Source: Geosiphon pyriformis (lineage: Eukaryota; Glomeromycota; Glomeromycetes; Archaeosporales; Geosiphonaceae). From it: DNA of 64,000 nucleotides. The notes under the pieces are model-generated. The model had not been told where the DNA came from, made no database searches, and worked only from the letters and a program-made list of their open reading frames with translations. Both the position numbers and the translations under genes were made by a program. Below, piece by piece: positions 1 to 61,914 of this stretch. Every line of letters starts with the position of its first letter. Positions within the stretch are counted from its first letter, which is position 1. The stretch covers positions 307,121 to 371,120 of the forward strand of contig JAAOMT010000786.1 in the NCBI GenBank assembly GCA_016748015.1. Reading direction: 5' to 3'.

Positions 1-564
1 AATAGATCCAATTTTATCCAACAAACTCCACTTTAAATCATACTTTCAAATTAAATATTCCAAGAAACTTTTAAAATCAAAAAGAAATGAAAAAAATATT
101 TAAAACTGAACTATCACAACCCAAAGTATTAAGAAACTTACTTGTATTATTTATTGAATGAAACTATCATTCATCAACTGAATCCCTTGGAAGAATAATC
201 CTTGATCAAGATTATTCATGTTGTTACTAATTGATAAAAGCTTTATTGTGAGAATTAGAAAAGCGCTAAAGACCATTAACATTCTGTGTTTCTAGATTAG
301 AGAAACACATCAAGCAATTGCAAGGATAGCCTCAGAGAAGACCCCAGACAGTGGGTAGATTTCAGTTCAGCCTCTGAGAAGGAGTACATAAACACACACA
401 ACAATCAAGAATTAAAGAATAACTTACATCGCAACAGTAAAAAAAAAGCCTTCAGTGTAACAGTGACATTATCACACAAATAGAACTGAGGAACTCACGA
501 AAGACTGATTGTAATTAAAGCGGGATATCAGCAATTAAATATAACAAGAAAACCATCCCATAAC
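1..564. other. AT-rich DNA, no gene seen
   Basis: I see no convincing coding region here. Two related short strings (near 329 and 371, both of the form CCTC-GAGAAG) suggest a decayed repeat, but I cannot assign it to a family. The block ends where homology to the LINE tail begins at about 565. Confidence 0.4.
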
Positions 565-1285
565 ACTATGTGCAAGCGTTTATATAATAGGTGTTACCCC
601 AGTGTGGTTTGTCTGTTTTGTGGTGATGTTGAGATCTCGGATCATGTTTTTTCGTGTCCTCAGGATGCTGTTGGCCGTGCTCATTTATTGGGCACACATG
701 CTTCAACTTGGAAGGCTCTTTCTGGCCTTTCTTGCTCTTCTTCATGTGTCTTACAGGCCTTAGCTTCTTGTGTTTCTGAGGTTGGAGTTGGTGTTGTTCT
801 GTGTAAGAGTTTTGTTTTCGATGAATGGTTTTGTGAGTCTGTCTTGGTCTTTAAGGATTCTAGGGAGGGTGCTAAGAGGATTGTGAGCTTTGTGCGTGAG
901 TTTTGTCTAGCATTTCGGGATGATGTTTGGTTGGTCTGGACCAGACACTGAGTGTTTATGGAGAAGCATGGTTTGATTCCACGTAATGGCTCTGCTCCTG
1001 CTTCGGTTTCTGGTTTGCCTAAAGTGTTTTCGGCTGGTGTGGTCAGATTGCTGGGGGTGGCTGAGGCTTTTGGTGTTGGTTTCGGGTTTCGTAAGTTTTG
1101 TCCATTTTTTTTAGATATTGGAGATTTGGTTTTTGTGCATATAAGTGTATAGTGTAGTCCTGACTGGCCCGAGTGGCTGGTCACGTGTAGAAAGCACATG
1201 ATTCGCACCTAGTTTAGATCATTTGTATGATGTATAGCACTAGGTTGTGTTTGGATCTCACTCGTTAAAATAAATAAAAAAAATA
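565..1285 (+). mobile_element. 5'-truncated LINE tail (copy 1)
   Basis: This is the last ~700 bp of the same non-LTR retrotransposon seen at 54985-61735, with only scattered differences. It covers the C-terminal zinc finger of ORF2 (CX2CX7HX3C near 610-660), the C-terminal tail and the 3' UTR, and ends in an A/T-rich tail after the shared string CTCGTTAAAATAA. The coding frame runs from 568 to a TGA at 949-951; after that stop the same reading continues to the end of the ancestral protein at 1150-1152. The full copy has CGA at the equivalent codon, so the stop looks like a CpG transition. Abrupt 5' truncation is typical of LINE insertion by target-primed reverse transcription. I could not see a target-site duplication. 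Confidence 0.85.
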
Positions 1286-11321: not shown

Positions 11322-12527
11322 CTAAGAGATAAAGGTAGCTTCGTTGAATAATTTACCAGAGACAGAGATCGTTGGATTATTTCCAACAGTAATGTTAGCA
11401 GTCGCTTCATTGAACCACTGATAGATAAAAGGCTTCGCAACGAAAGCTATTTAGAGAAAGAAAAATATTAATTTGATTTGACTGGCTATAGTCGTAGCAA
11501 ATTAAAAGCAAAAAATAACTGACATTGAACGATCTTCTTCAAAACATAGGGAACTTCTTTAAGTACATCAATTTTATCCATGAGCACTTGCGGTCTGATT
11601 TTCAGACTAGCTTTAAACTCTTCTTTGGTGTCCAGAGTTATGCCATCCCATGTGTAATGAATTTCTTTTGGAATGTGATACCCAGTCTGGAGGTCTGGTT
11701 CAGTCTCCAAAAATTCAACCACATTTTTTACAGAGACGCCAATTAATTTATCGTTAATAATTAGACTGCCTTGATTTACTTTTTTACTTCCATAATGGGG
11801 AGTAGTTTCGAATTCGAGCATTGCCAGTGAAACGGTTGGTGATTGAAAATCGAGGAAGTTCCAGCGAGAGGCAATTAGATGTGGCCTCATACCTTGAATG
11901 GCATGTACAAATAATGCGGTTCCAGTAATATCAAAGGCTTTTCCATCAACCACAATATTTCCACTAGTTTTGCATTTAGGCCAAAATTTGTGTTCGACAA
12001 ATCCCGATGTCTTATCTTTTCCAAAAAAAGTCTTTCCTTCCCCAATTTTGAACCCACGATCGACCCTTTCTAGCTCAAAAGAGACAATGAGATCTTGGTT
12101 ATGTTTCAAAGTAACTTTATATTTGTTACATTCAGGATTAAGAGTAATTTCCATATTATCCGCAGTAGCTGATCGTCGATCGTCGGAAAGTTTAAAATTG
12201 GACATATTGACGGATTTAAACGTATTAATTCCAGCACCAAAAAATCTCGCGGTAAATTGGATTGTTGGTGACCAGAGACTTTGTAAGAGATGTAGATTTT
12301 AATGATGAACAAAGTTTGCTTAGAAATAATATATACGTAGACCCATACCCAATGCTGGAATGGATCATTTGTACAAAAGCAAAATGACCTTCATCAGTCG
12401 TCAAGTAAAAGGTTTGGGTTTCGGTGGAAGAGCCAGAAGCAAGTGTCCATTCAAGATCTTTAGGAGAGACATCAGAGTAAAGTTTGTCCTTTGCCAATGA
12501 ACTAGCGATATGAAGATTAGTAGCCAT
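11322..12527 (-). CDS. SVF1: Svf1-like oxidative stress survival protein
   Basis: Member of the Svf1 family, lipocalin-like proteins needed for survival under oxidative and cold stress in yeast and implicated in ceramide handling. Three exons: 12349-12527, 11524-12278 and 11322-11446, summing to 1,059 nt (352 aa). Family features are the start region with DLEWTLASGSSTETQTFY, the segment SSIGLWSPTIQFTARFF rebuilt exactly across intron 1, the conserved block GMRPHLIASRWNFLDFQSP in the middle, and the C-terminal LFNEATFIS. I chose ATG 12527 because the sequence from it matches the family N-terminus; an upstream in-frame ATG at 12581 would add 18 unrelated residues. A downstream ORF in the same exon set is closed by the alternative acceptor, which supports this splicing. 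Confidence 0.92.
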
Positions 12528-12967
12528 GGTACTGATATTCAAGTCCCGTGGAAAGGTAACAGTAAAGAAAAAAACTGGCAACTTTAAATTTTCTCTGTGC
12601 GAGGGTCGACTTTAAAATTTCGAACACAATTATTTTAATCATTATGCTAACTTCAGTTTATCACGCTACGAGGCTTGCAATGCTATGCCGATTGGCGAAA
12701 ATACTCAGACAAACAGCTTTACTGGTATTGTCTGATTTTGGAAATGATCATTTTCAGACGCAGTCACATAATAAGAATGACTAAATAGAAACTCACCCCT
12801 CTTTCTTTCAAAGAAAAAAGGCGAAAAATCAATTTCTCACCTTTGTAGTATTTACTCGATTATTGGAAATAAAACAATTGCTGGGTGCATTCTGAAACTT
12901 TGAATTTTTGGCAGCTTGAAGAAAACAATACTTCGCTTTTTTTAATAATTCGAGAAAAACCCTAAAG
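12528..12967. other. Divergent promoter region
   Basis: 440 bp between the start of the Svf1-like gene (-) and the start of the Asn-rich hypothetical gene (+). It should hold both promoters. No gene or recognisable element is seen. Confidence 0.5.
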
Positions 12968-14072
12968 ATGGGTCTTCCTATGTACGTTTCCCCTCCTCTG
13001 GCCAAAAGACAGCTATCATTAAAACAACCACAAACACCCACAGACCAGCCTTCAGACGTTTCAAGTGATGCTAGTCAAAATTCTCGAACAAGCGCTTTTG
13101 GTAATCGTTTTTTTCTCGATAGGAATCTATCTAGCTCACCAATCTCATTCAGCCAAAATAGTGAGATGAATGCTTTTCTTCCTTCTTTGGACAACAATCT
13201 CACTGACCAACAACCAATATTAGAGATTCCAGAGTGGCTACCTGTTAGAAATGACCAGCAACGGCATGAAGAACGACGTAGAAGAAGATCCCTTCCATAT
13301 AATCTTGTCCACAACATTCAACGACTTCATCAACTGCATCATCTACACCGTACACGTGAACAAATGGTTTCTACTTCTAGCCTCGCGGCTAGACGTGGTC
13401 TACAAGCTGCACATCTAATGAATCTTCAAGCTGAGCAAAGTTCACAAGTTAGGTCAAATCCTCTTCCTCCTCTTCGAAGTCCAGTGAGAATTCGCCCCAC
13501 TGATGATCACCATCGTTCGCACCATCGTAATCATCGCTCTCAGTACGACCGCAATCACCCTCAAAGCCACCGCACTCACGATGATATTATATCCTCAACT
13601 CCATCTCAAACAAACAATTCGACATCAAGCACACAACCTTCATCTACAGCATTAGATGAAGTGATTAGACGAGTAAATCTGTTACGCCAAATGGCTCAGC
13701 AGCAGGAAAGATTATTAAGACCAAGATACCGACCATCAAATGGATCCAGCCGGTCATCATCTTCAACAATTTCGCCTTCAATAGCAAGTTCAGCTGGGAC
13801 AATCAGAGAAAGTCTACTCGAAAATACGAGGTTGCCACCGATGTCGGTTGACAATCCAACCCTCGTCCCCACACAAAATCTCGCACGCCTGTTACCACTA
13901 CCAGCTTCTCAATCCAACAATTATCGTTATCATAGACATTATGCTCTTGCTTTAGAGCCTACTATTAATAATGGGAGTTTTGAGGGAGATCCTTCTGTCC
14001 CATTTATTTTCCTTAGCGATGATTCAGGTTCAAATCAACAGACACGTATCTTATCTCCCATACCAAGGCGAC

Positions 14073-14152
<80 letters not shown>

Positions 14153-14362
14153 CATAATACATATTCGGCTGCATTAGCTGCTGTATCTGTCAATTCTATT
14201 GACCTTGAGGGGGAGGAGAGGGATGGCTATGAAGTGGATGGAAATAGGGTGGTAGTTGGAATTAGAGACCAATCCCCAGCAAATTTTGGTGCCTCTAATA
14301 ATGATGAAATCACTGAAATAATTCCGGAACAGAGAGGTTCAGCTTTTGGAGGGTGTTGCTAG
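12968..14362 (+). CDS. Intronless low-complexity protein with poly-Asn tract
   Basis: A single uninterrupted frame of 464 codons. I recognise no domain. The product is largely disordered: Ser/Pro/Gln-rich N-terminus, an Arg-rich patch (EERRRRRS) near residue 100, a His/Arg-rich stretch around residues 178-200, Ser-rich regions, a run of about 25 Asn (from residue 371), and an acidic end rich in Glu/Asp. The lack of introns is unusual among its neighbours. The Asn run is coded by a pure AAT microsatellite. A regulatory or RNA-binding role would fit the composition, but nothing in the sequence proves it. Confidence 0.75.
14078..14152 (+). repeat. (AAT)25 microsatellite inside coding sequence
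   Basis: A perfect trinucleotide run of about 25 units encoding polyasparagine in frame in the preceding gene. Length changes in whole units would keep the frame, so the protein is expected to be length-polymorphic between strains. Confidence 0.95.
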
Positions 14363-14904: not shown

Positions 14905-17900
14905 ATGTCAAAACATTACGAGTATTTCGAGTCCGAAATTAATGGACGTGCTATTTACTTGAATTCCACAACCAATTTGAAAAAACCTTTAGCTAGTCTT
15001 TTAGTATTACTCTTTTTTTCAACACTTTGGACTGCATATCATATTAGTTCTAATACTCTTCGAACTGTGCAAGTTCCTTCTGGTATTTCTTTTGAAGCAT
15101 TTCGAGAAGGACTTGAGAAATGCGCTGCATTTAAAAGACGACCAACAGATTTCACAAATAGAACGCGTGTCAATAATCCCAGACGTGATACCAATTCTGA
15201 AACCATAATTTTCAAGAATGGTAACATACTTGATGGTTTGGGGAACAAAATTGGAAAGGATGTGGCTATTAAAGATGGTCTTATCCTCTCAATCGGAGAA
15301 AATCTGGAGGTTGAAGGGGCCAAAGTGATTGATTTAAAAAAGAAATATATGTCGCCTGGACTTGTGGATATGCATAGGTCTGTGTGTGATAAATAATCAC
15401 GTCGCGTTGATTGATGATCTACCTTTGAAATGTGGCTTATTTGTCCGCTATTCCAAAAGTCATCTTGGTGTTAATTCTTGGCCAGAGTTATTCGGAACTG
15501 ATGATACTAATGAATCAACTGACCCAATTACTCCTTATGTTTGTATTAGTTCAGATAAAGATTTTGACCTGAAATATATCAAAGAATTGGTTCCAGAGAA
15601 AATCGTATTTTTTTTTGGTTTATTTACATTGGATCTTGATCTTTTTTGATAATGACAACCAGTTTTTTGATGTATTTCTAGTTCTTTAAAAGAAATATAT
15701 TCTTTAAAAAGCTTATAATAATATACCTCACGCTAGAGTTTAAATGAATTACTAGGTACGCGCTATTGATGGTCTCAATCCAAGTGATCCTGGTAAGTTA
15801 AATCTTGATTCACGTTGATATACTCTGTGGGATATTTATTGATCCTGAATTTTATTTTCAAGCTCTTCGCATAATTGCTTCGGGTGGAATCACTACTTCG
15901 TTAGGTAAGAGAACTAGTAAAAAATTCACCTCACCACCCTTTGACCAATTTTTTACCTTTATAAGTGTTGTTCAAGATAGCTAAAATGACCAAGACATTT
16001 CCTCCCATGAATTGGGTGCCGTCACAAATTGTTTTTGTTTGCGTTTCAGATTCATTTGAAATGATAAAATCCGGCCTTTGTAGTTAAGCATGCGATCCAC
16101 TTTGAGATTATAATTAATAAATAGAAAACCATACTCAAATTCCAAGTTAATTTCTTTTGAATTACTTTTAATCTCAACCAGAATTAAAATTTAATTCAAA
16201 CCTGATTTCAATAGCGATCTGTGACGGCGCCCAAAGGGCTAGAATTTTATTTATAATTTAATGCATCATTTCGCCTGATCAACAAGGGTCTCAAAAAATA
16301 TGTACAAAGATAAGTTTCATACTTTTAATTCATCTATAGTTCTACCGGGGAGTGCCAATTTAATGGGTGGTGAGGGTTATGTAATCAAGTTGCGTCCTGT
16401 TGATACACTATCAGTTGAGGATATGGATATCAATGCTCATATAAGTTTTACTGAACAAAAGCCTTGGAAATGGATGAAGATGGCTTGTGGTGAAAATCCA
16501 AAGGTAATTTCAATATAAAAATATTTCACAGGTAGTTTTTTATTAAGAATAATAAAAATATAAAATTCTCTAATTTTTATGTGCTAAAAAGGGAGTATAT
16601 GGTCGACGTCTCAAAAAGATGCCCAAAACTAGATTGGGCGAAGCTTGGCTTTTCAGAAAAAGATTTGCTGAAGCACAAGTTTTAAAGCAGAAACAAGATG
16701 ATTGGTGTGATAGTGCTGAAAAACTGGGTAATAATGAACAATTGAATACAAGATTTCCTGAAGATTTATCCAATGAACTTTTGGTGGCTTTGTTGAGGGG
16801 AGATGTGAAATTAAATGTTCATTGTTATGAGGTTATTCAGTTTTTACAATTAATTATTGAAATCAATTATCTATCTTTATTAATTTTACTAATTCTTGCT
16901 GATATAATTGATTAAAAGACTCATGATATTGAAGCGTTCATTAGGCATTCTATCGAGTTCAAATTTAATATTGCCGCAATTCATCATGCTTTAGATGCTT
17001 ATCGAATTCCTAGTATCATAAAAAGAACATCAAATGAGATTACTGTCGCCATTTTTTCAGATTTATGGGGTTATAAGAAAGAAGCTTTTCAGGCTAGTAC
17101 CAAAGCACCACTTATACTTTCGGAAGCGAATATTCCCGTTGCTTTAAAAAGTGATCACCCAGTGACCAATGCAGTAATTATTTTCAATTTTATTTTAAAC
17201 GAATTTTAAACGTAATTATTCAAAATTTTCAAAATTTTTGATACTTTTAATTTCAGCAAAATTTGGTTTACGAAGCTGCCAAAGCACACCATTATGGTCT
17301 TAGTGAAGGTCTTGCATTAGCGGCTGTAACCTCTATCCCTGCAAAAGCTCTTGGTCTTGAATATCGTATTGGTAGAATCGCTGAAGGATATGATGCTGAT
17401 CTTGTGGTGAATAAGAAATTTTTGCACACAAATGGTTTTTTTGGAGCTCAATATAAAATATCCCTTATTTAGATATGGAATTCTCATCCGCTTTCACTCG
17501 GTGCTACTCCTCTGGAAGTTTATATTGATGGAATACCTCAATTCAGAGCATCAATGTCTGTCCTCGCTCAGGCACCCAAAAAGCCCATCTCATTAAATAA
17601 TTCAATGTCACCTGATAGGAAATCAGGGGATCAACGTAAAATGCGAATTTCCTCCTCCGTTCTCATAACAAATGTGGGAAAGATCTTTGTGAATGAAAAT
17701 TCAATTATGAACGCTTTATCAAGGCCGGAAAATGAAAGGATGAAAATTTTAGTTCAAGGAGGAATTGTGAAATGCTTAGGATATTCATGTGACAAAATTG
17801 AATCAATTGTGGCTGATCATGTAGTTGATTTGGAGGGCGGTTATGTATTACCGGTGAGTTTTATAAATACTACTTAATGCTCATCAAACTGTTCTGCGAG

Positions 17901-20900
17901 CAAAAAAACATAAAACTCTTTGAAAAACCCTGTAGGGGATTGTAGCCGTTGGAACTGATCTTGGTCTTTCAGAAATTGAGCAAGAACCTCGTACACGTGA
18001 TGGGATCGTTGCATCTCTTTCAAGTCCTAACGATACTCATCATATAATACACGCGTTAGATGGATTAAAATTAGGTGGTAAACATTTGGATGTTGCCTAT
18101 AAAGCTGGCATTCTCACTGCTGTAACTGCTCCATTGTCTCGATTTGGAGTGGTGATTGGAGTTTCTACTGCGTTTAAAACTGGTGGGATAACTAGTGAGT
18201 CATTAAAATTTTTAAATCTCTTTATCACCAATTTTTATCATGATAATAACATTAGCTTAATTTTGAAATGTATAAGTCATTGATGATGAAAATGACGAAA
18301 TTGTCAAAGAAGCAGTTGCTTTACATTTTCATATAGGAACATCATTCTTGGATGGTATGTTCATAAGTTTGAATTTCTCGTAATTAAAAAACATTTTCAT
18401 TTTTTAATTTGATAACTAAATATAAATCAATTTCGTGAAATTCAGAAAAAACCCCTACAGTTTCATCTCAGATTAATTTCCTACGGCAAGCATTAATACA
18501 AAATATCGAGCCATCTTTCACTAATGTTTACGGGCGTGCCGCTCGGGGTGAAATTCCAGTTGCTGTCTATACTCATAGTAAAGATGAGATCGCGTCACTT
18601 ATTCGGCTTAAAAAACAAGTCAATTTGAAAAATGGTAAATTAAGATTGGTGATTATTGGTGGTGCTGAAGCACATTTTTTAGCCGAGAAATTAGCCANNN
18701 NNNNNNNNNNNNNNNNNTTCACAGGTAGTTTTTTATTAAGAATAATAAAAATATAAAATTCTCTAATTTTTATGTGCTAAAAAGGGAGTATATGGTCGAC
18801 GTCTCAAAAAGATGCCCAAAACTAGATTGGGCGAAGCTTGGCTTTTCAGAAAAAGATTTGCTGAAGCACAAGTTTTAAAGCAGAAACAAGATGATTGGTG
18901 TGATAGTGCTGAAAAACTGGGTAATAATGAACAATTGAATACAAGATTTCCTGAAGATTTATCCAATGAACTTTTGGTGGCTTTGTTGAGGGGAGATGTG
19001 AAATTAAATGTTCATTGTTATGAGGTTATTCAGTTTTTACAATTAATTATTGAAATCAATTATCTATCTTTATTAATTTTACTAATTCTTGCTGATATAA
19101 TTGATTAAAAGACTCATGATATTGAAGCGTTCATTAGGCATTCTATCGAGTTCAAATTTAATATTGCCGCAATTCATCATGCTTTAGATGCTTATCGAAT
19201 TCCTAGTATCATAAAAAGAACATCAAATGAGATTACTGTCGCCATTTTTTCAGATTTATGGGGTTATAAGAAAGAAGCTTTTCAGGCTAGTACCAAAGCA
19301 CCACTTATACTTTCGGAAGCGAATATTCCCGTTGCTTTAAAAAGTGATCACCCAGTGACCAATGCAGTAATTATTTTCAATTTTATTTTAAACGAATTTT
19401 AAACGTAATTATTCAAAATTTTCAAAATTTTTGATACTTTTAATTTCAGCAAAATTTGGTTTACGAAGCTGCCAAAGCACACCATTATGGTCTTAGTGAA
19501 GGTCTTGCATTAGCGGCTGTAACCTCTATCCCTGCAAAAGCTCTTGGTCTTGAATATCGTATTGGTAGAATCGCTGAAGGATATGATGCTGATCTTGTGG
19601 TGAATAAGAAATTTTTGCACACAAATGGTTTTTTTGGAGCTCAATATAAAATATCCCTTATTTAGATATGGAATTCTCATCCGCTTTCACTCGGTGCTAC
19701 TCCTCTGGAAGTTTATATTGATGGAATACCTCAATTCAGAGCATCAATGTCTGTCCTCGCTCAGGCACCCAAAAAGCCCATCTCATTAAATAATTCAATG
19801 TCACCTGATAGGAAATCAGGGGATCAACGTAAAATGCGAATTTCCTCCTCCGTTCTCATAACAAATGTGGGAAAGATCTTTGTGAATGAAAATTCAATTA
19901 TGAACGCTTTATCAAGGCCGGAAAATGAAAGGATGAAAATTTTAGTTCAAGGAGGAATTGTGAAATGCTTAGGATATTCATGTGACAAAATTGAATCAAT
20001 TGTGGCTGATCATGTAGTTGATTTGGAGGGCGGTTATGTATTACCGGTGAGTTTTATAAATACTACTTAATGCTCATCAAACTGTTCTGCGAGCAAAAAA
20101 ACATAAAACTCTTTGAAAAACCCTGTAGGGGATTGTAGCCGTTGGAACTGATCTTGGTCTTTCAGAAATTGAGCAAGAACCTCGTACACGTGATGGGATC
20201 GTTGCATCTCTTTCAAGTCCTAACGATACTCATCATATAATACACGCGTTAGATGGATTAAAATTAGGTGGTAAACATTTGGATGTTGCCTATAAAGCTG
20301 GCATTCTCACTGCTGTAACTGCTCCATTGTCTCGATTTGGAGTGGTGATTGGAGTTTCTACTGCGTTTAAAACTGGTGGGATAACTAGTGAGTCATTAAA
20401 ATTTTTAAATCTCTTTATCACCAATTTTTATCATGATAATAACATTAGCTTAATTTTGAAATGTATAAGTCATTGATGATGAAAATGACGAAATTGTCAA
20501 AGAAGCAGTTGCTTTACATTTTCATATAGGAACATCATTCTTGGATGGTATGTTCATAAGTTTGAATTTCTCGTAATTAAAAAACATTTTCATTTTTTAA
20601 TTTGATAACTAAATATAAATCAATTTCGTGAAATTCAGAAAAAACCCCTACAGTTTCATCTCAGATTAATTTCCTACGGCAAGCATTAATACAAAATATC
20701 GAGCCATCTTTCACTAATGTTTACGGGCGTGCCGCTCGGGGTGAAATTCCAGTTGCTGTCTATACTCATAGTAAAGATGAGATCGCGTCACTTATTCGGC
20801 TTAAAAAACAAGTCAATTTGAAAAATGGTAAATTAAGATTGGTGATTATTGGTGGTGCTGAAGCACATTTTTTAGCCGAGAAATTAGCCAAGCATAAAAT

Positions 20901-21318
20901 CGCCGTCGTGCTGGTACCATCTAGACCAACTCCAACTTTATGGACAGCTCAAAATGTTCTCACCGGACCACCTCTAACAAATAACACAGGAATTGATATC
21001 CTTAATGCTCACAAGGTACTTTTGGGAATTGGAATTGAAGATTCTGGACTCGCAAGAAACTTAGTTTGGGATGCTGGTTGGGTTTTTCAGAATTCAGGAG
21101 GAGAAATTTCTGAAAAAGAAGCTGTCGGATTCATTACTTGGAATTTAGAGAAAATTTTTGGTTTAAAACAAAAATCGGAAGAAATTAAAGGATTAAAAGA
21201 AGGCAGCATCGCGGATTTCGTTGCTTATGATGGCAATCCGTTTGATCTGAAAACAAATGTTCGTATTGTAGCAGGTGGTGGACGAAAGAATGTCCTGATC
21301 AATCCTGAACAGGATTAG
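14905..21318 (+). CDS. Membrane-anchored two-module amidohydrolase (gap inside)
   Basis: Amidohydrolase-superfamily protein of a large type; its substrate is unknown. After removing one duplicated block, twelve exons join cleanly: 14905-15377, 15460-15538, 15756-15792, 15863-15904, 16340-16503, 16592-16831, 16919-17173, 17257-17406, 17473-17853, 17936-18194, 18277-18354, then 20639-21318 from the right copy. They sum to 2,838 nt (945 aa). Residues 28-46 form one membrane segment, so a type II anchor is likely. Module 1 has the metal motif DMHSH (residues 155-159, split by intron 1), a later NVHCYE and IHHALD, and the SDHP acid motif. Module 2 (from about residue 570) repeats the composite beta-sandwich and LPG turn but has VAVGTD where HxH is expected. 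The annotated span is inflated by a scaffold artefact. Confidence 0.85.
16525..18697 (+). repeat. Left copy of an identical 2,173-bp block at a gap
   Basis: This block recurs at 18718-20890 with a constant offset of 2,193. All open reading frames inside it are identical between copies. It ends exactly where the N run begins and its twin starts exactly where the N run ends, the signature of two contig ends that overlap but were not merged. Confidence 0.95.
18698..18717. other. Assembly gap of 20 N
   Basis: Twenty undetermined bases. The round number suggests a placeholder rather than a measured gap size. It interrupts an exon of the amidohydrolase in the middle of a codon run that continues without a break at 20891. 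Confidence 0.99.
18718..20890 (+). repeat. Right copy of the 2,173-bp block
   Basis: Identical to 16525-18697 as far as I can see by eye. It begins inside an intron (after exon 5), which would make no sense as a tandem gene duplication, and its last base is followed by the missing continuation of the interrupted exon. Confidence 0.95.
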
Positions 21319-22199: not shown

Positions 22200-23449
22200 A
22201 TGTTTCACGAAGACGAAGATGATATTCCCACGTAAAATCTTCTATCGACCAACTTTTCGTTTTTTTTATCTCGACAGAAATTAATTCATATTAACCAACC
22301 AACAGTTTATCATTAGATACTTTGTCAGCTCTACAAGAATTTTTAACTGATCAAGAAAAAGCAAATAAAATTTTTGAAAGACTACGTGCACGTTCTGAGG
22401 CACGATTTATCTCTGAGAAAGGAGATTTAAAAGATGACGAGGAGGTACTTGACGACTTAGAAATTAAAGATCAATTGATAATGGAGGATGATATGAATTT
22501 GTTCAAGGAGGATTGGCAGGTTAATGATGGTTCTCAAAGAATTTGCTTCCTTGTTTATCTAATAATTTTAATTACTCTTCTTGTTTTTTATCTAGTTAAG
22601 CCAATTTTGGGTATATGATATAATTATTATGACTTGCTTTTTTTTGGTGGAAAATAAAATTAAAGGTCACGGGCGATGAAGAAACTTATATAATCATTTC
22701 TTTAAACAAAATGTCACTAACAGTACGATGATACAACGTCGCAAACGATCGCAACAGAAATATTAAAAAATTTTGTCGCTTACGCCGGTGATCAAGATAA
22801 ACTAAAACATCAGTCAAATAATGATTATCGAATTGCATGTATTAGCACTCCAACAATATTTGTTAAGTTGAAGGTAATCAACATGAAAATTCTATTTTTT
22901 AGAGATTTGACTTTTTCAATTAGATCAAATTCTAATTTTATTATCCAAATTAGGGTTTGATACAGTCATCAACTTATAATGGATGTATACCACAACCATA
23001 TCTATTTGAGTTCGATAAGAGATTTGACATTTACGGCAAAAATTTCATTCATTATGATTACAAAAAGCCTATAAAGTTTCACGATGCTGACCGTCTGAAA
23101 GGAGCTTTTGACTATATCGTTATCGATCCGCCATTTTTGAGCGAAGAATGTTTTACAAAGACCATGATTACTACACGATGGTTGGCAAATCAAGGTTGCA
23201 AAATCTTGGTGTGCACGGGTAATTAATTCCGAAATTATATATATATATATATATATTTTCTTTGAATCATATAAAATTATGTGTTCTATTCTGATATTTT
23301 CAGGAAAGGTAATGGCAGATCTGGTAAAGCGGTTAATCGATGCTCGCATGACAAACTTTATTCCTCAACATAAAGGTGGTTTAGCAAACGAGTTTCGTTG
23401 TTTTACTAACTACAAAAGTGATCAATTAGAGTGGGTTGTTGATAATTGA
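22200..23449 (+). CDS. EFM5: EFM5-type protein-lysine N-methyltransferase
   Basis: Homologue of eEF1A lysine methyltransferase 1 (yeast Efm5, human EEF1AKMT1, once called N6AMT2), which methylates elongation factor 1A using S-adenosylmethionine. Five exons: 22200-22231, 22306-22519, 22724-22873, 22954-23218 and 23304-23449, summing to 807 nt (268 aa), slightly longer than yeast Efm5. Exon 1 gives MFHEDEDDIPT, which joins to LDTLSALQEF, the usual start region. The catalytic DPPF motif sits at residues 190-193 in the context YIVIDPPFLSEECF. The C-terminal block GGLANEFRCFTNY is also typical. Substrate assignment rests on family membership only. Confidence 0.92.
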
Positions 23450-24075: not shown

Positions 24076-26198
24076 ATGAACCCTCATCTTAAGTACCTAA
24101 ACAAACCATTAGTGGAAACTGATATTGAAATATTCGACATAATAGAAAGGGAAAAAAAACGTCAACGTGAAAGTATCGTTCTTATACCCTCCGAGGTTGG
24201 TTAATGAACCCATTTAAGTTTTCTCCGAATTTTATTGATGAAATCTTTTGTAGAATTTTACATCTCGTGCTGTGATGGAAGCCCTTGGCTCTGTCATGCA
24301 AAACAAATATTCGGAAGGATATCCTGGAGCAAGGTATTTTGGCGAGCTCCATTATTTTACTTTCGTATTATTAGGTGAAGTTTGTTGAATTTCTTTCTGC
24401 AGTGCTTTTCAAATCTTTTGCCTGGGGAGATTCGAAGAATATCTATAGAAATATTTTTATTTATTACTTATTTATTTTATTTAAAACTGACTTCTATCTT
24501 AACTTTTCAAAGATATTATGGTGGCAACGAATATATTGATCAGGCTGAAAGTCTTTGCCAAAAACGTGCTTTAGAAGCATTCAACTTGGACCCATCTAAA
24601 TGGGGAGTCAATGTACAGGCTTTATCCGGTAAAGTTTTATTCTACTAGAAAAATCTAATCATAATTTATTGAAATTCCTCTCAAATTTTATCTTCAGGGG
24701 CTCCGGCTAACTTATACGTATATAGCGCAATCTTAAAACCCCATGAAAGGTTGATGGGGCTCGATTTGCCACATGGTGGACAGTAAATATTAAACAATCC
24801 AGATTTTTTTCTGTGGTTCAACCCCAAAGGGATACCTCTGACAATTATCATTTTGAGCTCATTTAAGATAGTCTCTCTCATGGCTATCAAACAGACACAA
24901 GGAAAGTTTCTGCCATATCAGCATATTTTGAAACACTTCCTTATCGTTTGAACGAGCAAAAGGGGATCATTGATTATGATGCTCTTGAGTCGACAGCCAT
25001 CTTATATCGGCCAAAGGTGATTATTGCGGGCGCTAGCGCCTATCCTCGAAAAATTGATTACCAGCGAATGAAACAAATCACTGATAAAATCAACGCATAC
25101 TTAATGGCGGACATTGCTCATATAAGTGGTAGGAGAGATTTCACTTGAGCTTACGTTAAAACGAGTCTGATCATGCATTTAACACCCGTTTTAATATGGT
25201 ACGTCTTCAGGTTTAATAGCTGCGGGTGTTTTGCCTTCACCTTTTCAATATGCTGATATTGTTACTACCACAACGCATAAATCTTTACGGGGTCCTCGTG
25301 GGGCTCTGATATTTTTCAGAAAGGGATTTAGGAAAGTCGATAAGAAAGGCAAAGGTGAACTTATTTTTTAATTTTCAAATTTAAGATTAATATTTCTAAC
25401 TTTTTAATTTGACTGTATTTAAGAAACTTCTTACGATCTTGAGAATGCCATCAACCAATCAGTATTTCCAGGACACCAAGGTGGACCTCACAATCACACA
25501 ATTACTGCTCTGGCGGTTGCGTTGAAGCAAGCTAAATCTACCATCTTTAAAGAATACCAGGAGCAAGTATTAAAAAATAGCTTGGCATTTGCAGAAGCTT
25601 TTAAAAACAAAGGGTATAAATTGGTCTCTGATGGTACAGATACACATTTGTTGCTGTTGGATTTGAAACCGAAGGTGAGACGGTCCAATTTTTATTTCAA
25701 AATTCAAAGATAAAACACATATAATACGGAAGTTCATTTTCATTTATGTGAAAAATATTTAGGGAATTGATGGGGCTCGGGTAGAACGTATTCTGGAATT
25801 GTCTAACATCGCTGCTAACAAAAACACGGTTCCCGGAGATATTAGTGCCATGATTCCTGGTGGTGTTCGTTTAGGAACTCCCGCAATGACAACGCGTGGT
25901 CTCTCTGAATCGGATTTTGTAAAAGTTGCAGACTTTATTCATCGTGGAGTGGAAATTGCAATAGATTCTAAATCAAAAGTCAAAGGTAAAGTATAATGAA
26001 CCGGCAATTCCCTGTTTTATTTAGTCTCTTAATTAACCATTTCTACCAGGTTCCAAGTTTAAGGATTTCAAAGAATACATTGGGGATCATGGAGAATCTG
26101 ACCCTAGAATTGCGGATTTGAAGAAGGAAGTGATTGAATTTGCAAGTGGTTTTCCTACAATCGGATTTGAAGAAAGTGAAATGAAATTTGGATTGTGA
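24076..26198 (+). CDS. SHMT: Serine hydroxymethyltransferase
   Basis: PLP enzyme converting serine and tetrahydrofolate to glycine and 5,10-methylene-tetrahydrofolate, the main source of one-carbon units. Nine exons: 24076-24195, 24254-24333, 24513-24628, 24698-24782, 24872-25128, 25211-25354, 25424-25674, 25763-25985 and 26050-26198, summing to 1,425 nt (474 aa), the usual length of a cytosolic form. Visible motifs are [17 protein letters not shown], the folate/PLP region LPHGGHLSHGY rebuilt across an intron, and the PLP lysine in [13 protein letters not shown] (Lys243). No presequence precedes [12 protein letters not shown], so I infer the cytosolic isoform. All introns are GT-AG. Confidence 0.97.
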
Positions 26199-59900: not shown

Positions 59901-61594
59901 TTGGCGGATGTGGTTCGCATTTTTTTTGGATGTGATTTGTCTTTGAGAGGCCCTCTGAATTGTGCTTTTCGTTGTCGGTGTGGTACTCCTATGTCTTTGG
60001 TTCTTGGTGAATCCTGTTTTTTCAAGTGCATCTTTTCACTCAGGTGTTATGGAATTGCTTTCGTGGAACAGCTTTGTGACTATAATAGTGATGTTTTCAG
60101 TTGGGGGACCTTCAAGCGCTGGAAGAGGCTGGACCTTTGTGGCCTAGTCCCTTTCTGGTTTGATCTTTCCATTCGCTTTCTTGGTGGTGTTGTTCCTCTC
60201 TCCTCAAGTTCTTCTTTGGTAGATGGTTATGCTGTGTCTGATATTTGTCTTTCTCATAATTTTGGTGTAATTTGTGACACTTTGCCGACCATTGATGCTG
60301 CCTGCTTTTCTGTGTATATGGATGGGTCTCTTTCTGGTCTGAGCACTGTTGACATGAGAGCAGGTGCTGCCGTTTTTTTTGAGGACATTAACTTGGGTTT
60401 GGGTGTTGGGGTGTCTGGTTTGGTTTCTTCTACTCTGACAGAACTGCAGGCCATAGCTTTGGCCCTTGAGTGTGTTCCTTTTTCTCATTCGATTGACTTA
60501 TTCTCGGATAGCCAGGCTGCTTTAGATGCATGTAGGTCGGAGTCTTTGCTGGTTTGTCTGGATTTTAGGAACTGCTGTTGGATCGAGTGTCGTCACATTG
60601 CCACCGTCATTTGTCAAAAAAATTTGGATGTGAATTGGATTAAGGTAAAAGGTCATTCAGGTGTTTCAGGCAACGAGCATGCTGATGCATTTGCCAAGGG
60701 TGCTGCTTTCTCTGCTTGGCGCCTACCTCATTTAGTCAGTAAATGTTTTCTATGTGCTGGTGGTACAGCAGTTTCTGGTAATTCTAGGCACTTTGTTCGT
60801 GATATTTTCCAGTTAGTTCATCGAGCTCGTTGGGAGATTGGAATGAGTTCTCGTTTTGTGGATGATAGTTTGCGTGCTAATGTCAACTGGTCTAAGTCTT
60901 CTATGATGTGGCACCCCGATTCTCACTTGGCATCCAGTTTTACCAGCATGCACATGGCGGGATGTCGTACTTACTTTATGAAGGCTCTCCATCATCGGCT
61001 TCCTGTTGCTGTGCACAAGCATTTATATGATAGGTGTTATCCCAGTGTGGTCTGTCTGTTTTGTGGTGATGTTGAGACCTCGGATCATGTCTTTTCGTGT
61101 CTTCAGGATGCTGTTGGCCATGCTCGTTTGTTGGGCGCACATGCTTCAACTTGGGAGACTCTTTCTGGCCTTTCTTATTCTTCTTCATGTGTCTTACAGG
61201 CCTTAGCTTCTTGTGTTTCTGAGGTTGGAGTTGGTGTTGCTCTGTGTAAGGGTTTTGTTTTCGATGAATGGTTTCGTGAGTCTGTTTCGGTCTTTAAAAA
61301 TTCTAGGGAGGGTGCTAAGAGGATTGTGAGCTTTGGTGTGAGTTTTGTCCAGCATTTTAGGATGATGTTTGGTTGGTCTGGGCCAGACACCGAGCATTTA
61401 TGGAGAAGCACGGTTTGATTCCACATGATGGCTCCATTCCTGCTTTGGTTTCTGGTTTGCCTAAGGTGTTTTTGACTGGTGTGGTCAGATTGCTGGGGGT
61501 GGCTAAGGTTTTTGGTGTTGGTTTCAGGTTTCATAAGTTTTGTCCATTTTTTTTAGGTATTGGAGATTTGGTTTCTGTGCATATAAGTGTATAG
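56907..61594 (+). pseudogene. LINE ORF2, broken (EN-RT-RNase H-Zn)
   Basis: Polyprotein for target-primed reverse transcription. It starts at ATG 56907 (MSSLVWKVATCNVRG). A single frame runs to about 61335 with three in-frame stops: TAG 57192-57194, TGA 57792-57794 and TAA 58362-58364. Endonuclease motifs: TEMK, GGNFNEN and the SEHFDTDYQ region. RT catalytic motif FVDD at 59211-59222 (about codon 769), followed by NNDKT and HRYLGIF. RNase H has the DEDD set: MDGS (Asp at 60321), TELQAIALALE, FSDSQAALDA and GHSGVSGNEHAD. The C-terminal finger is CX2CX7HX3C near 61050-61100. A 1-nt loss near 61334-61340, shown by comparison with copy 1, shifts the last ~80 codons to another frame that ends at 61594. 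Confidence 0.9.
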
Positions 61595-61735
61595 TGTAGT
61601 CCTGACTGGCCCGAATGGCTGGTCACGTGTAGAAAGCACATGATTCGCACCTAGTTTAGATCATTTGTATGATGTATAGCACTAGGTTGCGTTTGGACCT
61701 TACTCGTTAAAATAATAAAAAAATAAAAATAAAAA

Positions 61736-61914
61736 AATTATATTAGATATAAAAATACATCTTAAAATTAAAATAATTATTTATAATTTAACTAAAATTA
61801 ATAATAATAAATCATAAATATTATATTTATATTAAAGTTAAAATTTAAAAAAGAAACAAAAATATTATTTATAAATTAAAAATACTTAATATTTTTATTT
61901 TTTTTATTTATTTA
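61736..61914. other. AT-rich junction between two LINE tails
   Basis: Nearly pure A/T sequence between the A-rich tail of copy 4 (+) and the 3' end of copy 3 (-). No feature is visible. Confidence 0.5.

Follow-up and report, generated by a model that had tools for sequence, protein, structure and literature searches.

False segmental duplications and false exon gains caused by assembly errors have been described in genome sequences (Kelley and Salzberg 2010, PMC2864568; Ko et al. 2022, PMC9516828). Their hallmarks are copies that lie next to each other, an assembly gap between the copies, and several exons of one gene being hit (PMC9516828). A repeat of this appearance is found in a 64,000-nucleotide stretch of the Geosiphon pyriformis genome (positions 307,121 to 371,120 of contig JAAOMT010000786.1, assembly GCA_016748015.1; hereafter the window), where it lies within a gene for a putative amidohydrolase and very probably has its origin in the assembly.

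The repeat consists of two copies of a 2,173-bp block, located at 16525-18697 (copy 1) and 18718-20890 (copy 2). Between them is a run of 20 N (18698-18717), the sole N run within the window. Direct comparison revealed 2173 equal positions out of 2173 (0 mismatches) at an offset of 2193, and this identity spans introns and exons alike. Copy 1 forms the right end of the left contig and copy 2 the left end of the right contig; both are flush with the N run, and both extend from the rest of intron 5 of the gene described below to a part of its exon 12. The match cannot be extended, as copy 1 rightward and copy 2 leftward both run into N. No mismatch boundary between two real sequences was seen at either block edge, the N run alone ending the match. 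The earlier note had reported identical blocks of this length and offset that both end at the N run, which proved to be correct to the base.

In the self-comparison of the window, the block is the only perfect repeat, and the two other matches of at least 150 bases have identities of 91% (over 741 bp) and 65% (over 1667 bp). No 31-mers of the block were found elsewhere in the window. Furthermore, a genome-wide search (124.7 Mb, 406 contigs) gave two matches, both at this locus, and no third copy. A chance repeat is excluded by 2173 identical bases, and the possibility that the block is a dispersed repeat situated at contig ends was rejected, because the genome contains just the two copies. Another dispersed repeat does occur in the window, with 91%-identical copies at 573-1313 and 61016-61754 and many genome copies at 89-93%.

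The block lies within a gene (14905-21318, plus strand) for a predicted two-domain protein of the amidohydrolase superfamily, identified through spliced translation, Pfam and PDB 3ooq. If one block copy and the Ns are removed, this gene comprises 12 exons and 945 codons followed by a single terminal stop, without any internal stop; every intron has GT-AG borders, and intron lengths are 66-435 bp. The twelve-exon, 945-codon gene that the earlier note had expected from collapsing the repeat was thus recovered. Exons 1-5 (14905-15377, 15460-15538, 15756-15792, 15863-15904 and 16340-16503, plus strand) are single in the assembly. Exons 6-11 (in copy 1: 16592-16831, 16919-17173, 17257-17406, 17473-17853, 17936-18194 and 18277-18354, plus strand) are repeated at +2193 in copy 2. 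Exon 12 (20639-21318, plus strand) is doubled at its start, its first 252 bp being present also at 18446-18697, and single in its 3' part. The left edge of the block falls within intron 5 (16504-16591), and its right edge cuts exon 12 behind the first base of codon 804; the earlier description of a block reaching from an intron into an exon holds. A paralogue of the 945-residue protein was not detected by protein search in the organism's own genome.

The predicted protein matches the Amidohydro_1/Amidohydro_3 profiles PF07969 (2.5e-20, 73.9 bits versus a curated cut-off of 29.7) and PF01979 (4.2e-16, 59.6 bits versus a curated cut-off of 25), which assigns it to the amidohydrolase superfamily. 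Its N-terminus carries a hydrophobic stretch, and its residues 99-506 match PDB 3ooq with an E value of 1.1e-67. A tblastn search of plasmids revealed two adjacent ORFs on plasmid pSA1 (L038) of Novosphingobium resinovorum that match the protein: the first (domain A) aligns with residues 92-500 (33% over 421 columns, E 5e-62) and the second (domain B) with residues 597-945 (25% over 366 columns, E 2e-18). When prokaryote genomes were scanned with the merged protein, the only match was weak and partial.

These homologues span both seams of the collapsed gene. Seam 1, from the left flank to the block, corresponds to residues 265/266 ('MACGENPK-GVYGRR') and is covered by PDB 3ooq as well as by Novosphingobium domain A. 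Seam 2, from the block to the right flank, corresponds to residues 803/804 and is covered by Novosphingobium domain B, with the conserved run 'LVIIGGAEAHFLAEKLA-KHKIAVVLVP' versus 'VVIVGGAEAWRAADLLAKAHIPVVLDP'. The two adjacencies that the collapsed gene requires (left flank to block, and block to right flank) both sit in gap-free assembly. The collapsed order thus fits the homologues, and the proposed contig join conflicts with no assembled sequence.

The arrangement would be explained if the left contig, stopping at 18697, and the right contig, starting at 18718, shared a 2,173-base overlap at their ends which the scaffolder left unmerged. The contigs would have been ordered by linking information, and a default 20-N gap would have been written between them. 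The true locus would then possess a single block copy and a single amidohydrolase gene of 12 exons and 945 codons. We strongly infer, short of proof, that the duplicated block is a false duplication of this kind, and consider it highly probable that no biology stands behind it. The identical copies are adjacent on one scaffold, a gap lies between them, both end at contig ends, and the collapsed version agrees with the homologues; the analysis demonstrates that the overlap is a perfect dovetail, that there is a single locus, that the gene is intact once collapsed and that homology extends over both seams. The earlier note had also considered the repeat a false duplication, which is supported by the identity including introns, the gap-flush edges, the restriction to one locus, the intact gene and the colinear homologues.

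Perfect identity would equally follow from one collapsed repeat consensus being placed twice. This could be the case if a real, very recent tandem duplication of ~2.2 kb had occurred inside the gene and its true junction were hidden in the 20 N. The sequence itself leaves room for such an event, as assemblers may break contigs at repeat edges, and contig ends elsewhere on the scaffold do fall in repeats. We nevertheless regard it as quite improbable: the block is absent everywhere else in the genome, both of its ends are arbitrary within the gene, and the copies lack a single difference in 2,173 bp. Furthermore, the putative breakpoints display no bases in common if a junction of zero length is assumed, but this carries little weight, as the true junction would sit inside the Ns. 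The coding capacity of the unmerged sequence bears on the same question. Direct read-through of the cut exon 12 would run into a stop codon around residues 806 to 822 (the position varies with the length of the gap), which speaks against a real duplication, but open-frame transcripts would still be possible. If the splice sites are kept as they are, 29 open-frame models are possible in the unmerged sequence, seven of which arrive at a protein of 945 residues through a ~2.28-kb intron that removes the equivalent of one copy (compared to 66-435 bp in the collapsed gene); another possible model encodes a 1287-residue protein with exons 6-9 repeated. That a duplication would destroy the gene is therefore a weak counter-argument, because the 945-residue frame survives if one copy is spliced over. 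This also makes the statement of the earlier note that any automatic annotation would report a duplicated or broken gene too strong: one copy can serve as a ~2.28-kb intron, and annotation need not break. A real duplication of this kind would be recent, would cover exons 6 to 11 and a part of exon 12 in the family's only gene found in the genome, and would be tolerated since splicing can skip one copy in frame, but we think it quite unlikely to have happened.

The two contigs could also represent two haplotypes or nuclei whose alleles are alike here (heterotype false duplication). Separate assembly of haplotypes is a common source of false duplication (PMC2864568, PMC9516828), but 0 differences over 2,173 bp including introns give no sign of two alleles, and we attach least credence of all to this explanation. 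As it would still be a false duplication, the practical conclusion would not change.

Seven N runs (of 20, 56, 6505, 20, 5000, 5329 and 948 bases) were counted over 324 kb of this scaffold, and a perfect dovetail is present at the gap described here and at none of the other six. Because two of these gaps have exactly 20 N, we infer that 20 N is the minimum gap size, apparently written by default. The second 20-N gap (G000:C398:248648-248667) is without such an overlap and thus gives no sign that the fault is systematic; a fault at every gap of the assembly is unsupported, the other six sampled gaps being without a perfect dovetail. The 6505-N gap (G000:C398:300616-307120) immediately precedes position 1 of the window. 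The window opens with 558 bp that show 97% identity, in the same orientation, to the 559 bp left of the gap, and the sequence at these edges (window 1-565) is part of a dispersed repeat family of which the genome has many copies; the contigs at that gap thus simply end in a repeat. This arrangement would fit a long-terminal-repeat element with an unassembled interior. Note also that G000:C398:385838-390837 consists of exactly 5000 N, a round number among irregular gaps, which may reflect either a default gap length or sequence that was withheld.

The neighbors of the amidohydrolase gene encode a Svf1-like protein (11486-12298, minus strand), an N6-adenine methyltransferase-like protein (22954-23226, plus strand) and serine hydroxymethyltransferase (24867-25996, plus strand). 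The Svf1-like protein, the short introns and the GC content of 34% are suggestive of a fungus. An ORF at 12920-14362 (480 residues from stop to stop, without Pfam match) contains a run of ~25 asparagines at 14070-14160, formed by an AAT-type repeat. No RNA families were matched in the window.

An unmerged overlap of this kind adds a false tandem duplication of 2.2 kb to the genome and may lead to a false gain of exons, to an intron of artificial length or to splitting of the gene. The importance of the locus is limited to annotation quality: it would be an ordinary artefact, although a clean case of an unmerged overlap at a gap of apparently minimum size, and of use to curators.

Compared with known systems, the locus shares with the false duplications described previously (PMC2864568, PMC9516828) the neighboring copies on one scaffold, the gap separating them and the involvement of several exons of one gene. 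It differs from cases of divergent alleles in its 100% identity, and because of this identity it resembles the homotype or unmerged-overlap kind. The predicted protein resembles PDB 3ooq in that its residues 99-506 align across most of the 3ooq chain, and differs from it by two additions, a hydrophobic segment at the N-terminus and a second amidohydrolase-like domain, which is diverged. The two ORFs of N. resinovorum pSA1 match the protein in the same order; they are, however, neighboring ORFs, whereas the window encodes one fused protein. As they match residues 92-500 and 597-945, respectively, the protein of G. pyriformis appears to have both of these domains fused.
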